This document shows positions 8,762-64,000 of a stretch of 64,000 nt of DNA, one piece after another. The notes below the pieces were generated by a model. That model ran no database searches and was not told the DNA's origin. It worked only from the letters and a program-made list of their open reading frames with translations. Positions within the stretch are counted from its first letter, which is position 1. Every line of letters begins with the position of its first letter. A program made the translations under genes and the position numbers. This DNA is from Halopseudomonas oceani (GTDB lineage Bacteria > Pseudomonadota > Gammaproteobacteria > Pseudomonadales > Pseudomonadaceae): contig NZ_PPSK01000001.1 in the NCBI RefSeq assembly GCF_002903165.1, positions 1 through 64,000 on the forward strand, given 5' to 3'.

Positions 8762-9808
8762 ATGCGTCACGGAGATATTTCCAGCAGTCCCGATACCGTT
8801 GGCGTGGCTGTCGTCAACTACAAGATGCCGCGCCTGCACACCCGCGAAGAGGTACTCGACAACGCGCGCAAGATCGCCGATATGATCATCGGCATGAAAC
8901 AAGGTCTGCCGGGCATGGACCTGGTGGTGTTTCCGGAATACAGCACCATGGGCATCATGTACGACGGCGACGAGATGATGGCGACCGCCACCACGGTACC
9001 CGGCGACGAAACCCGGATCTTCAGCGAGGCCTGCAAGCAGGCCAGCACCTGGGGCATCTTCTCGCTCACCGGCGAGCGTCACGAAGAACACCCGCACAAG
9101 GCGCCCTACAACACTCTGGTACTGATCAACGATCAGGGCGAGATCGTACAGAAGTACCGCAAGTGCATTCCCTGGTGCCCCATCGAAGGCTGGTACCCGG
9201 GCGATCGCACCTACGTATCCGAAGGCCCCAAGGGCATGAAGATCAGCCTGATCATCTGCGACGACGGTAACTACCCCGAAATCTGGCGCGATTGCGCGAT
9301 GAAGGGCGCCGAGCTGATCGTCCGCTGCCAGGGTTACATGTACCCGGCCAAGGACCAGCAGGTGATGATGGCCAAGACCATGGCCTGGGCCAACAACTGC
9401 TACGTTGCCGTCGCCAACGCCACCGGCTTTGACGGCGTCTACAGCTACTTCGGTCATTCCGCGATCATCGGCTTCGACGGCCGTACGCTGGGCGAATGTG
9501 GCGAAGAGGACATGGGCGTGCAGTACGCGCAACTGTCGGTGTCGCAGATTCGTGATGCGCGTGCCAACGACCAGTCGCAGAACCACCTGTTCAAGCTGCT
9601 GCACCGTGGCTACACCGGCATGTACAACTCCGGCGACGGTGACCGAGGCGTGGCAGACTGCCCATTCGAGTTTTATCGCACCTGGGTCATGGACGCGGAG
9701 AAGGCGCGCGACAATGTCGAGGCCATAACCCGCAAAACCATCGGCGTCGCCGACTGCCCGGTCGGCGAGCTGCCCCACTCCGGCAAGGAACGCGAAGCCG
9801 GACTCTGA
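8762..9808 (+). CDS. amiE: Aliphatic amidase AmiE
   Basis: This 348-residue nitrilase-superfamily amidase converts short aliphatic amides such as acetamide and propionamide to acids and ammonia. The catalytic set is intact: Glu59 (VVFPEYS), Lys134 (KYRKCIPW), Glu142 and Cys166 (LIICDDGN), the same numbering as known AmiE enzymes. AAAGGAG precedes the ATG. It follows the activator gene by 31 bases. The family forms hexamers in the cytoplasm. The close paralogue AmiF (formamidase) is the alternative; length and motifs fit AmiE better, and formamidase activity is already covered by FmdA. Confidence 0.93.
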
Positions 9809-9815
9809 CCACACC

Positions 9816-9836
9816 GGGGCGCCCGCACGGCGCCCC
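9816..9836 (+). other. Strong hairpin between amiE and the AAA+ gene
   Basis: GGGGCGCC and GGCGCCCC form a perfect 8-pair GC stem with a 5-base loop starting 7 bases after the amiE stop. There is no T-run, so it probably protects the amiE message or lowers expression of the next gene rather than terminating fully. Confidence 0.6.
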
Positions 9837-9861
9837 GCCCGGAGCGATACGGCCCAACACC

Positions 9862-10908
9862 ATGCCCTTTATCAATGACCTGCTGGCCGAGAACCAGCAA
9901 CACAACGAGCAGCAAGCGCCGCGCGCCCACACCAGCCGTTTCCTGTTTGAGCCGTTGCGCGTCATGCAGTTGCTGCAGCAGCGCATCATCGGTCAGGACG
10001 ATGCCCTCGCAGAAATCAGCGACAGCCTGGCGGTGGTCAAGGCCGAGCTGGGCGATCCACGCAAACCACTCGGCGTGTTCCTCTTGCTCGGCCCTACCGG
10101 CGTCGGCAAAACCGAAACCGTGCGACTGCTGGCCGAGGCGATTCACGGTCGGGCCGATGCCCTGTGCCGGATCGACATGAACACCCTGGCACAGGAGCAC
10201 TACGCAGCCTCCCTGACTGGCGCACCACCCGGCTACGTCGGCAGCAAGGAAGGCACCACCCTGTTCGACCGCGAGGCCATCGAAGGCAGCTTCGGCAGAC
10301 CCGGCCTCGTGCTGTTTGACGAGCTGGAGAAAGCTAGCGACCCGGTCATTCGCGCGCTGATGAATATCTTCGACAACGGCCAACTGCGCCTCAGCGCCGG
10401 CAACAGCACATTGGACTTTCGCAACAGCCTGATCTTTTTGACCAGCAACCTCGGCGCCAGCAGCGTGCAACAACTGGAGCAGGGCTGGGCGCGACTGTTG
10501 CCACCCCGCTGGCGCAGCAGCCTACAGCAACGGGTACAGCGGCGTGCACTGCAACAGCGTTTTGATCCCGAGTTTCTCAACCGACTGGATCACCGCATTC
10601 GCTACCGCTCACTGCACAGCAGCCAGTTGCAGCATCTGGTCGAACTGGCGTTGGCGCAGCTCAATCAACGACTGGCCCGGCATCAGGTTCAGCTGGCGCT
10701 GGATGCCGAGCTGCGTGACTGGCTTGCAGCCCGCGGCCACGACCACCGCTTCGGCGCGCGCGCCATCGCGCGCAGCTTTCGCCATCACCTTGAGCCCGCG
10801 GTCGCCAGAGCCTTGCTTGACGCCGAGCCCCCCCCTGCGGGCAGCCTGCTGCGCGCCAGCCTGAACGCGGGGGAGGTGCAGATCCGGATTGAACCACCAC
10901 CAGTCTGA
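9862..10908 (+). CDS. amiB: AmiB-like AAA+ ATPase (ClpA/B-type)
   Basis: The 348-residue protein carries one AAA+ module of the Clp/Hsp100 second-domain type: Walker [10 protein letters not shown] near residue 76, pore-loop-like GAPPGYVGSKEG, Walker B LVLFDELEKA and a C-terminal D2-small domain (about 255-340) with HDHRFGARAIARS. It lacks the first ATPase domain and the N domain of full ClpA/ClpB. In the P. aeruginosa amidase operon a similar protein, AmiB, follows amiE, but its function is not established. A role in amidase folding, assembly or turnover is inference. Confidence 0.8.
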   Translation: MPFINDLLAENQQHNEQQAPRAHTSRFLFEPLRVMQLLQQRIIGQDDALAEISDSLAVVKAELGDPRKPLGVFLLLGPTGVGKTETVRLLAEAIHGRADALCRIDMNTLAQEHYAASLTGAPPGYVGSKEGTTLFDREAIEGSFGRPGLVLFDELEKASDPVIRALMNIFDNGQLRLSAGNSTLDFRNSLIFLTSNLGASSVQQLEQGWARLLPPRWRSSLQQRVQRRALQQRFDPEFLNRLDHRIRYRSLHSSQLQHLVELALAQLNQRLARHQVQLALDAELRDWLAARGHDHRFGARAIARSFRHHLEPAVARALLDAEPPPAGSLLRASLNAGEVQIRIEPPPV

Positions 10909-59696: not shown

Positions 59697-59968
59697 GGCG
59701 AACTCTCCAAGCAAAAACCGGGGCTTCAGCATAACCAATTGCGGGGTACCAGGTCGTTTTTTAGACATCAATGGATCATTTCGCTATCATGCTCGACTGC
59801 TGAACATTCAGCCCATCACTATGATCATTGCAAATTAGCCAATGATCGACGCTTTTTTTCGCCGTTCACTCCAGTTTGTCGGCTTACTTTCATGCACGCG
59901 CACTGCTTCTCAGCAGCCTGCCCGATGCGACCTATTGTTTTTTACAAGAAAGATACAGACGATCCTCT

Positions 59969-61321
59969 ATGCCAAAATCCAATCTTTTAGCCGTTACCTC
60001 CATCACACCTGATCAGTTCAACGTCAACCAGCTGCGCCACCAGCGCTTCAAGGTTTACACCGCCAAGCAGCTCGACCAGATTCCGCAGCTGCAGCAATTG
60101 AGTGCAGAGCAGCGCTTTGAAATGCAGGTTGTCGCCAGCGTCCTGCCGTTCCGGGTCAATCAGTACGTCATTGACGAGCTGATCGACTGGCAGCAGGTGC
60201 CGGCCGACCCGATTTTTCAGCTAACCTTCCCGCAACGCGGCATGCTCAAGCCAGAACACTACGACCGGGTTGCCAATGCCATGCGTGATGAGGTCGGGGC
60301 CGCCGAGTTGAAGGCGCTGATCAGCGAAGTCCGCGCTGAGCTGAACCCCCACCCGGCTGGCCAGCTGGAACACAACATCCCCAAACTGGATGGCGAGGTG
60401 GTAGAAGGTTTGCAGCACAAGTATCGCGAGACCGTGCTGTTCTTCCCCAGCTCCGGCCAGGTCTGCCACAGCTACTGCACCTTCTGCTTCCGTTGGGCCC
60501 AGTTTGTCGGTGACAAGGACCTGAAGATTGCTGCCCGTGAATCCAACCAGCTGCAGGACTACCTGCGCGCTCATCCCGAAGTGACCGACGTACTGGTCAC
60601 CGGCGGCGACCCGATGGTGATGAAAACCCGCAACCTGCGCGCCTACCTCGAACCACTGCTCAGCGATGAATTTGCCCACGTCCGTACCATCCGCATCGGC
60701 ACCAAGGCACTGACCTTCTGGCCCCAGCGTTTTGTCAGCGATGACGATGCAGAGGACCTGCTGGCCCTGTTTGCTGAAATCCAGGCCGCCGGTAAACACC
60801 TGGCGCTGATGGCGCACTACAACCACTGGAAGGAGCTGGAACCGGAGGTGGCCCGCGAAGCAATCCGTCGTGTCCGCGAAACCGGCGCGCAGATTCGCGC
60901 CCAGGGCCCGCTGCTGGCACATATCAATGACGACGCCAGCGTCTGGGCAAGGCTCTGGCAGACCCAGATCGAGCTCGGCATCATCCCCTACTATATGTTC
61001 GTTGAACGCGATACCGGGGCACGCCACTACTTTGAGGTGCCGCTGGTCAAAGCCTGGCAGATCTACCGCGACGCCATGCAGCAGGTCTCGGGTATCGCCC
61101 GCACCGCCCGCGGCCCCTCCATGAGCTCGCACCCGGGCAAGGTGGAAATCCAGGGCGTCACCGAGATCAATGGAGAGAAAGTCATCGCCTTGCGTATGAT
61201 TCAGGGCCGCAACCCCGACTGGGTACAGCGCCCGTTCTTTGCCAAATATGATGAGCAGGCCACCTGGCTCAACCACTTGAAGCCAGCATTCGGCGAAGAA
61301 CGCTTCTTTTTCGACGAGTAA
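59969..61321 (+). CDS. KamA-family radical SAM protein (lysine 2,3-aminomutase-like)
   Basis: The 450-residue enzyme has the radical SAM cluster motif CHSYCTFC (Cys166, Cys170, Cys173), VTGGDPMVMKTRNL for SAM binding and a family-specific N-terminal helical region. Lys391 in SSHPGKVEIQG is the likely pyridoxal-phosphate lysine, although the usual glycine-rich GGGK context is altered. It is longer than EpmB, which modifies EF-P. Its substrate may be lysine, glutamate or another amino acid. The start is the ATG giving MPKSNLLAV. Confidence 0.87.
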   Translation: MPKSNLLAVTSITPDQFNVNQLRHQRFKVYTAKQLDQIPQLQQLSAEQRFEMQVVASVLPFRVNQYVIDELIDWQQVPADPIFQLTFPQRGMLKPEHYDRVANAMRDEVGAAELKALISEVRAELNPHPAGQLEHNIPKLDGEVVEGLQHKYRETVLFFPSSGQVCHSYCTFCFRWAQFVGDKDLKIAARESNQLQDYLRAHPEVTDVLVTGGDPMVMKTRNLRAYLEPLLSDEFAHVRTIRIGTKALTFWPQRFVSDDDAEDLLALFAEIQAAGKHLALMAHYNHWKELEPEVAREAIRRVRETGAQIRAQGPLLAHINDDASVWARLWQTQIELGIIPYYMFVERDTGARHYFEVPLVKAWQIYRDAMQQVSGIARTARGPSMSSHPGKVEIQGVTEINGEKVIALRMIQGRNPDWVQRPFFAKYDEQATWLNHLKPAFGEERFFFDE

Positions 61322-61394
61322 CCCGACGACGCCCGGTGGTTTAGCACGCCGCCCGGCTCTTTTATAATGCGCGCCTCATCCCTTGGGGCGCTGC

Positions 61395-61790
61395 ATGAAA
61401 CCGCAACTGATTCCCGCCGCCGACATCGACCGGCTAGACACCTGGCAGAAGTACCGCAAGGGCCTGTGCGATAGCTGCAACGCCAGTTGCTGCACGCTGC
61501 CGGTAGAGGTTCGGCTGGACGACCTGATTCGCTTGGAACGGGTAGATGAATTCGAACGTGGCGAGCCACTAAAGCAGATCGCCAAACGCCTGCAGAGAGA
61601 AGGTGTCGTCGAGCGTTTTCACCAGAAGAGCGGCGTTTTCACCCTTAGCCGCATGAGCAACGATGACTGCCTGTTTCTCGATGCCCGCAGCCGGCGCTGC
61701 ACTGTCTACGACAAGCGCCCTGCGACCTGCCGCAACCACCCGCAAGTCGGGCCGCGCCCCGGTTTCTGCGCCTACCGACCAAAACCCTGA
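61395..61790 (+). CDS. YkgJ-family cysteine-cluster protein
   Basis: The 131-residue protein has the zinc/iron-chelating cysteine cluster of the YkgJ family: CDSCNASCCTLPVEV near residue 28, DDCLFLDARSRRCTVYDKRPATCRNHP near 92-118 and a last Cys in GFCAYRP. The start follows the family N terminus. It lies 73 bases after the KamA gene in the same direction and may be co-transcribed. YkgJ proteins are of unknown role; a link to Fe-S enzymes is possible. Confidence 0.88.
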   Translation: MKPQLIPAADIDRLDTWQKYRKGLCDSCNASCCTLPVEVRLDDLIRLERVDEFERGEPLKQIAKRLQREGVVERFHQKSGVFTLSRMSNDDCLFLDARSRRCTVYDKRPATCRNHPQVGPRPGFCAYRPKP

Positions 61791-61801
61791 CCATCAGCCA
61801 C

Positions 61802-61836
61802 AAAAAAGGCGCCGACCCGACGAGGGGCCGACGCCT
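61802..61836 (-). terminator. Terminator of the PET-hydrolase-like gene
   Basis: On the minus strand AGGCGTCGGCCC pairs with GGGTCGGCGCCT (12 pairs, two of them G-T) and is followed by TTTTTTG, 18 bases after the stop codon. The left arm also works for the converging YkgJ transcript. Confidence 0.9.
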
Positions 61837-61854
61837 GCTCCTTGAACCCGGAAC

Positions 61855-62766
61855 TTAGTACGGGCAGTTGCCGCGATAACCGGAGATCTGGAAATCCGAA
61901 GTATGGTTCGGACCACAGAGGAACTGCTTGTAGCGGTTGTCTTCATCCAGATGCAGTTTCATCCAAGACACGCCCAAGCGGCCCAATACATCGTTGTAAA
62001 TGCTGCCACCATTGGCACAGAAGTGGCTGCCACCGTTAATTTCCACAAAGGCCTTGTCGATGTTCGACGGCAGCGAATTGTAGAACGGCGATGCGTGCTG
62101 GAAGACCGGCGCGATCACATCCGCCTGACAGGCAAAGATCAAGGTCGGCGCCTGAGCGCGGCTGGCGTAGTAGCTGGAAGTATCCCAGGGTGCCAGCGGA
62201 ATGGCAGCCTTGATACGACCTTCGCTGGCCACCCGCAGGGTACCGCCACCGCCCATCGACCAGCCGACTACACCGAGGCGATTGGTATCAATCATTCCGC
62301 GCACGGGGCTTGTGCTCCGGCTGTTCTGGCTGATCAGGTAATCCAGTGCGTTATTGATCTGACGTGCACGGCTCGGCGGCTGATCAAAGCCGGTGTTGGT
62401 GTCAATGGTCATGACCACAAAGCCGTAGGACGCCAGTTTCGGCCCCCACCAGTCAATCGACGACTCGGCAGAAACAAACCCGGGAATCACCACCACCGCT
62501 GCCATGGTGCCGGTAGTACCGGTGGGGTAGTAAATGGTGCCGCCGCCAAAGCCGCTGACCAGGCCGGATACGCGGCTGGAGCGCACGCTGTACTGGCCGC
62601 GATCGGCTTCGAGGAAGCTGACGGATGGATCCGGGCCGCGCTGGTAGCTGGAACCACCGCCGTCACCAGGATCGGTCGGCGGTGGATTGTTGGCCAGGGC
62701 AGACATCGAAAACAGCAGCGCGCCAGCGCCACAAATGGCAAGGATGCCTTTTTTGCTGAATGGCAT
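61855..62766 (-). CDS. Type IIa PET-hydrolase-like polyester esterase (cutinase family)
   Basis: This 303-residue secreted alpha/beta hydrolase has a signal peptide ending SMSALA near residue 25. The triad is Ser170 (GWSMGG), Asp216 and His248. Substrate-cleft positions match known PET hydrolases: Phe97, Trp169, Met171, Trp194. Two cysteine pairs, Cys213/Cys250 and Cys284/Cys301, and the C-terminal loop around QFLCGPN mark type II enzymes; Phe249 after the catalytic histidine, instead of Ser, marks type IIa. It resembles PE-H of P. aestusnigri, which hydrolyses PET films. Activity of this protein is inferred, not shown; natural substrates are probably cutin-like or microbial polyesters. Confidence 0.93.
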
Positions 62767-62836
62767 GAGGTGTAGCCTCCATGAATCGTGCGTGGTTTTT
62801 GTTGTTGGGTACATCACGATCCGGCCTGCGCCGTTT

Positions 62837-63014
62837 CGGACCTCGGGTTGCCTGAGCGCTACTCTAGCGCCGCTCCCGACCAACACCAGCACCCATTCAG
62901 GTGACTTACCGGCAAATCCACCCTTTCGGGCGATGGCCGCTCCGGCAGCGGCCAACTAGTATCCTGTCTGCAATAAGCGAATCCCGTTGCCCGCCGCTCG
63001 GACCTCAGGTTGCC
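62837..63014. repeat. Two direct copies of a 16-base word upstream of the esterase gene
   Basis: CGGACCTCGGGTTGCC at 62837-62852 recurs as CGGACCTCAGGTTGCC at 62999-63014, with one mismatch, in the 279-base gap between the esterase and the response-regulator genes. They may be regulator sites or a short repeat. The rest of the gap holds no gene. Confidence 0.5.
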
Positions 63015-63045
63015 GCCTACAGTCCCAGCACCGAGCCAACGCCGA

Positions 63046-64000
63046 TCAGGGGTCGCTCAGCGATGCCCTGATGAACTCGATCTCGTCAAATAGTCCAGCC
63101 ATGATTTCTACCCCTGCTGGGTCAAAATGCTTACCCGACTGGGAAAGAATGTAGGCCTGTGCCTTCTCTGCGCTCCAGCCTTGTTTATAGGGTCGCGAAC
63201 TGCGCAGCGCATCATAGACATCGCACAGCGCAACGATGCGCGCCGAAATGGGTATTTCTTCCCCCTTGAGCCCGCCAGGATAGCCGCTGCCATCCCACTT
63301 CTCATGGTGATTGAGCGCAATTTCCGCAGCCAGCTCCAGCAAGGAGGATCGACCGCTATCGGCAAGAATGTCGTGCCCGATACGCGCGTGCCGCTTCATG
63401 ATGTCGAACTCGTCCTCAGTCAGCTTGCCCGGCTTGAGCAGAATATGATCAGGTATGCCAATCTTGCCAACATCATGCATGGGCGCGGCGAGCCGCAACA
63501 ACTCTACCCAGGTCGCCGGTGCGCCAATCGCCCGTCCTAGCAAGGCGGCAGTTTCACCTATCCGCATAATGTGGTTGCCGGTCTCGTTGTCCTTGTAATC
63601 TGCCGCCCGGGCCAGCGCCCGAATCACTGCCTGGTAACTGTCACGCAGCCGCGCAGTGCGCTCCTCGACGCGCATTTCCAGGGTCTCCCGCTCCTGCTGC
63701 AGCAGGCGATGGGCGAAACTCAAGTCCAGACAGTTGCGCACGCGCAACAGCAGCTCAGGCAAATCAACCGGCTTGGTCAGGTAGTCGTTGCCACCCAGGT
63801 CCAGGCCGCGTCGACGACTCACGGCGTCACCCAACGCCGTTACCAGTATTACCTGCTGCGCACTTCGATCGCGGTCGCGCAGCGCCTCCAGAATGGCAAA
63901 TCCGTCCGGCGCCGGCATGTCCAGGTCCAGCAGCAACAGATCCCAACTGTTCTGCTGCAACCAGGTCAGACCCTCGGCAGAATTGCTAAAGCCCTTTACC
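63046..64000 (-). CDS. Response regulator with HD-GYP domain (partial)
   Basis: The gene runs off the right edge, so its start is missing. The visible part begins in a receiver domain: DLLLLDLDMPAPDGFAILEAL contains the phosphorylated Asp, then LVTALGDAV and YLTKPVDLPELL with the conserved Lys. A coiled linker (LLQQERETLEMRVEERTARLRD) leads to the HD-GYP domain: GNHIMRIGETAALLG, MHDVGKIGIPDHILLKPGKLT, NHHEKWDGSGYPGGLKG (HHEKWDGSGYP). HD-GYP proteins with these residues degrade cyclic-di-GMP. Confidence 0.93.
   Translation of the reverse strand, partial: VKGFSNSAEGLTWLQQNSWDLLLLDLDMPAPDGFAILEALRDRDRSAQQVILVTALGDAVSRRRGLDLGGNDYLTKPVDLPELLLRVRNCLDLSFAHRLLQQERETLEMRVEERTARLRDSYQAVIRALARAADYKDNETGNHIMRIGETAALLGRAIGAPATWVELLRLAAPMHDVGKIGIPDHILLKPGKLTEDEFDIMKRHARIGHDILADSGRSSLLELAAEIALNHHEKWDGSGYPGGLKGEEIPISARIVALCDVYDALRSSRPYKQGWSAEKAQAYILSQSGKHFDPAGVEIMAGLFDEIEFIRASLSDP

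Follow-up and report, generated by a model that had tools for sequence, protein, structure and literature searches.

The stretch of DNA analyzed here (the window) comprises the first 64,000 nt of contig C1 (449,228 bases) of the genome (4,155,021 bases) of the marine bacterium Halopseudomonas oceani. It contains a minus-strand ORF of 303 aa, with the ATG at 62766-62764 and the TAA at 61857-61855 (Table 1). The first-pass annotation had given these coordinates without a strand; as the minus strand carries the gene, the plus-strand frame over the same interval was dropped. In a mechanically compiled list of ORFs the frame has a longer start, at a TTG at 62955 (366 aa). We prefer the ATG at 62766, since it is preceded by GGAGG 9 nt upstream and since PE-H, the polyester hydrolase of H. 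aestusnigri, starts with the same Met. A simple promoter scan yielded a single site, on the plus strand, and no minus-strand promoter-like site upstream of the gene. The hairpin directly downstream may have arisen by chance, as the region 61300-63100 contains five terminator-like sites on both strands, with 1.4 expected.

Table 1. Features of the hydrolase locus, in window coordinates
Feature	Position	Strand	Basis or remark
Type IIa PET-hydrolase/cutinase gene, PE-H orthologue	61855..62766	-	Translation, identity to PE-H, Pfam
Ribosome-binding-like GGAGG	62776..62780	-	Distance to the ATG, read from the sequence
Probable Sec signal peptide of 25 aa (MPFSKK...SALA, followed by NN)	62692..62766	-	Homology to PE-H
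GWSMGG (residues 168-173), containing catalytic S170 and M171 of the oxyanion hole	62248..62265	-	
Catalytic D216	62119..62121	-	PE-H counterpart D217
Catalytic H248 and F249 (codon TTC)	62020..62025	-	
Type II extended loop GGSIYN, residues 253-258	61993..62010	-	Identical to PE-H 254-259
Terminator-like hairpin with T-run, directly 3' of the hydrolase gene	61807..61836	-	
Upstream neighbor, response regulator with HD domain	63046..64000	-	Open frame continues to 64131, past the window
Convergent neighbor, presumed lysine 2,3-aminomutase-like protein	59966..61321	+	Radical_SAM Pfam below cut-off
Convergent neighbor, CxxCxxCC protein	61383..61790	+	

The longer of the two convergent genes encodes what we take to be a lysine 2,3-aminomutase-like protein; its score with Pfam Radical_SAM is 20.9 bits, under the cut-off of 29.5. 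The CxxCxxCC protein is presumably of the YkgJ type. A relative of the HD-domain response regulator adjoins PE-H in H. aestusnigri. Moreover, the order of all seven queried proteins (the PETase and six neighbors) is kept in H. aestusnigri VGXO14 (locus L034) and in H. pachastrellae (L035), the outermost queried proteins in the latter being partial matches. Among the 24 named loci compared, some of which are short, the HD-domain regulator lies near the hydrolase gene only in L034, L035, and L037. A phage origin was dropped, as there were no PHROGs matches.

A phmmer search against PDB sequences matched the protein to PE-H (6sbn) at E = 3e-193 (60 of 179 matched sequences listed), which excludes chance resemblance; the two proteins share 279 of 303 aligned residues (92.1% identity). 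The Pfam PETase family (PF12740) is matched at 391.7 bits, with a cut-off of 28. The NCBIfam BHET hydrolase equivalog NF051441 scores 313.5 bits, below its cut-off of 520, and we dropped this name for the protein. An AlphaFold model built from 40 aligned sequences (five models, best mean pLDDT 82.5, the other four from 76.8 down to 49.7) has pLDDT under 50 at residues 1-3, 25-37, and 125-128, the last of these beside the cleft; a prediction from the single sequence reached a pLDDT of 32 only. The predicted fold is closest to PE-H (TMt 0.97 to 6scd, the structure of the Y250S variant, and 0.95 to 6sbn), followed by PbauzCut, PsCut, Ple629, MG8, and Ple628. The PsCut (8ais, Pseudomonas saudimassiliensis) and PbauzCut (8ait, P. 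bauzanensis) cutinases, of the same fold and group, show 79-81% identity in the fold comparison. The protein also matches Pfam DLH (29.8 bits, cut-off 21), and some of its relatives carry the names "lipase" or "cutinase", as would be the case for a general lipase or esterase sharing only the alpha/beta fold with PET hydrolases. Given the PETase score, and with PE-H and its kin as the closest sequence and fold matches listed, such an enzyme is extremely improbable; the sequence and fold comparisons contradict it. Nor did we see the clustering with lipases that the first-pass annotation had set as a test, all best fold matches being kin of PE-H.

The catalytic triad S170/D216/H248 has residue-for-residue equivalents in PE-H, for which S171, M172, and D217 are described (PMC7031157), and the run GWSMGGGG starts at residue 168. 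F97, W169, M171, W194, and the loop G253-N258 also correspond to PE-H one for one, the loop limits in PE-H being taken from the same paper (PMC7031157). The cysteine pairs 213/250 and 284/301, predicted to form disulfides, are at the PE-H positions; among the 120 listed homologues of 2984, C213 and C250 are present in all, and C284 and C301 in 118, with gaps in two. The numbering is offset by one from PE-H because a single PE-H residue, S36, is missing here. Besides this, there are 24 substitutions, those near the catalytic Asp and His in the sequence being E215Q, S216A, Y250F, and G252A in the PE-H numbering; among the PE-H residues compared, the only changes are Y250 to F249, G252 to A251, and T198 to S197. 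Thus the triad, the four cysteines, the cleft aromatics, the extended C-terminal loop, and the offset of one are all as the first-pass annotation had described them. The secretion it had proposed is likewise plausible, the signal peptide being assigned purely by homology to PE-H, whose authors give 25 aa (PMC7031157). Two matches over the cut-off in a secretin search indicate that secretins exist, without pointing to one for this hydrolase.

The assignment to type IIa, also made at first pass, agrees with the identity to PE-H and the PETase score as well as with the GWSMG box and triad, the PE-H-type cysteine pairs, the loop of PE-H composition, and the bulky aromatic side chain directly following the catalytic His. 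According to the PE-H authors, the latter is found in types I and IIa (PMC7031157); type IIb (IsPETase-like) enzymes are marked by a small residue at this place, which here is F249. By the sequence, H224 and F228 occupy the positions of IsPETase S214 and I218, a pair described as unique to IsPETase; the remaining known PET hydrolases are all said to conserve His and Phe there (PMC10080609). Of the M5 motif (PMC12224614), the elements compared, PG[YF], GxSMGGGG, and DxDxRYxxFxC, are present, the comparison covering these elements themselves. Type I cutinase-like enzymes share the Phe after the catalytic His but have GHSMG in place of GWSMG, and are described as having one disulfide and no extended loop (PMC12442448).

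Type IIa copies, defined as matches over 400 bits, were found in 36 of 37 same-genus genomes, the genome under study included (53 distinct copies). A same-genus genome, G035 (92% complete), shows no such copy, its best match having E = 2.2e-16 and 33% identity. The H. oceani genome carries one type IIa copy, while several same-genus genomes have two or three adjacent ones: three in G018 (C63:27414-30973) and two side by side in each of G008, G023, G017, G009, G026, G029, G019, and G030. Outside the window, the H. oceani genome also encodes an enzyme with a GHSQG box (L002; contig C33, about 9682-10452, minus strand). Its solved relatives include 9w68, named "PETase" (E = 6.8e-167), and 9hl5 (E = 2.6e-166), which is HaloPETase1 (PMC12442448). 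Hence this genome has a type III-like PETase besides the type IIa one.

Two marine Halopseudomonas isolates are reported to carry incomplete "pseudo-PETase" genes (PMC12224614), and so membership in the group does not by itself prove activity. These incomplete copies in related isolates raise the prospect that the gene studied here is likewise inactive and retained without function. This is most unlikely, as the open frame is full-length, the triad is intact, and all four structural cysteines are in place; moreover, seven listed homologues (P0003-P0009, 95.7-99.7% identity) are of the same length or one residue longer.

The residue following the catalytic His was the focus of the first-pass annotation, which correctly noted that Phe here (F249) corresponds to Tyr in PE-H (Y250) and to Ser in IsPETase (S238; PMC7031157). 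Among the 120 listed homologues of 2984, this position holds Tyr in 100, Phe in 15, Thr in three, and Trp in two, the protein itself being counted among the 120 and among the Phe rows; seven of the 15 Phe rows are 95.7-99.7% identical to it. The 53 same-genus type IIa copies have 48 Tyr, three Phe, and two Thr. In a scan of named genomes, 80 loci were kept, 69 with a motif match and 11 without, and the first match per locus was counted. Among the 69 scored loci, all 45 with the type I-like GHSMG have Phe, and those with GWSMG have Tyr (19), Phe (2), Thr (2), or Trp (1). A FastTree phylogeny of 171 rows, computed with the column in question removed, requires seven changes of the label "Phe or not", at least six of them being forced by well-supported branches, with gain and loss indistinguishable. 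The tree contains the protein twice (L004_1 and P0002) and leaves out P0020 (293 aa, no motif by pattern) and, from the Phe rows, P0108 (216 aa). Judged from these alignments, Phe at this position is a recurrent state, usual in type I and a recurrent minority in type IIa.

Some type IIa-like (GWSMG) proteins naturally have Thr at this place, namely those of L130 (two copies on one contig) and L053, and P0066, P0103, and P0107. Being smaller, Thr recalls the activating Y250S substitution in PE-H and may be a better natural comparison than Phe. Trp is found in L051 and P0117 (Alkalilimnicola ehrlichii) and in P0070. The solved structure of PET44 (8otu) comes from A. ehrlichii as well, which is not meant to equate PET44 with the L051/P0117 protein. 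In PsCut and PbauzCut the residue is Tyr, as opposed to Phe here.

Phe at this site has also been studied experimentally. MG8 (9vzr), a PET-active class II hydrolase from a human saliva metagenome, has F250 beside H249 (PMC7613822), as in the H. oceani protein, and is 76.3% identical to it over 266 alignment columns; unlike the latter, it is reported to have a three-residue addition in the catalytic-His loop (PMC7613822). Changing F250 of MG8 to S, A, I, L, or V is described as bringing little gain on PET (PMC7613822), while F250A served as the template of improved double and triple variants (PMC12767563). In TfCut2, replacement of F209 by Ser or Ala increased activity, as cited in the PE-H paper (PMC7031157). 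The TfCut2 result and the use of MG8 F250A as a base count against the position hardly mattering in enzymes with Phe. For PE-H itself, a molecular dynamics study lists F98, W195, and Y250 among the residues contacting a PET dimer (PMC12933714); in the open-access literature searched, we found no test of exactly Y250F. Hence the novelty of the Phe variant implied at first pass does not hold: Phe is usual in type I, recurs in type IIa, and has been tested in MG8.

Activity on PET has been reported for several relatives. PE-H is active on Impranil, BHET, and amorphous PET (PMC7031157). In the Halopseudomonas lineage, two type IIa-like enzymes, HaloPETase5 and 6 of the same genus being similar to type IIa, and four HaloPETase1-type enzymes are described as PET-active (PMC12442448). 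A Halopseudomonas isolate with a complete M5 gene is reported to degrade PET films significantly, only with an additional carbon source (PMC12224614). The film degradation, the type IIa group, and the readable M5 elements are what one would expect of a dedicated PET-degrading enzyme that feeds a terephthalate pathway, with F249 tuned to PET. We regard such a role as very improbable: the isolate needed the additional carbon source, and pathway genes are absent among the neighbors examined. In addition, the presence of the type IIa copy in nearly all same-genus genomes argues, by inference, against recent adaptation to plastic. We found no tannase/MHETase-family match in the H. oceani genome, the control genomes being likewise silent.

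Taken together, the protein is very probably the PE-H orthologue of another Halopseudomonas species, that is, a Sec-exported serine polyester hydrolase of type IIa that would likely act on natural aliphatic polyesters and have a side activity on PET. By analogy with PE-H, S170, activated by H248 and D216, would attack the ester bond near F97 and W194, which may provide the aromatic contacts with the substrate; the main-chain NH groups of F97 and M171 would stabilize the oxyanion, and the C213-C250 disulfide would brace the catalytic loop. The PE-H authors suggested an aliphatic polyester from algae or plants as the natural substrate (PMC7031157), and natural aliphatic polyesters are probably the main substrate here as well. 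Slow, weak hydrolysis of amorphous PET to MHET would be, we infer, a side activity.

F249 would occupy the same gate position as Tyr250 and be still bulky, and since it lacks the hydroxyl, the contact between Tyr250 and E102 is impossible. Our guess is that its effect relative to PE-H is modest and much smaller than the effect of the Ser variant. One could also imagine, rather doubtfully, that Phe is a recurrent natural loosening of the active-site gate, with the beta3-alpha2 loop no longer held by the Y250-E102 contact. The cleft and the polyester activity might then be intermediate between those of wild-type PE-H and Y250S, and the switches between Tyr and Phe, and more rarely Thr or Trp, might tune the enzymes to different natural polyesters.

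This kind of enzyme is well studied, and MG8 provides an earlier example of Phe at the gate, one that has been examined by mutation as well. The gene is one more close orthologue of PE-H in a crowded group that is watched for plastic recycling. Although 23 other substitutions distinguish the two proteins, the pair offers a natural Tyr-to-Phe comparison that bears on the hydroxyl of the gate tyrosine.
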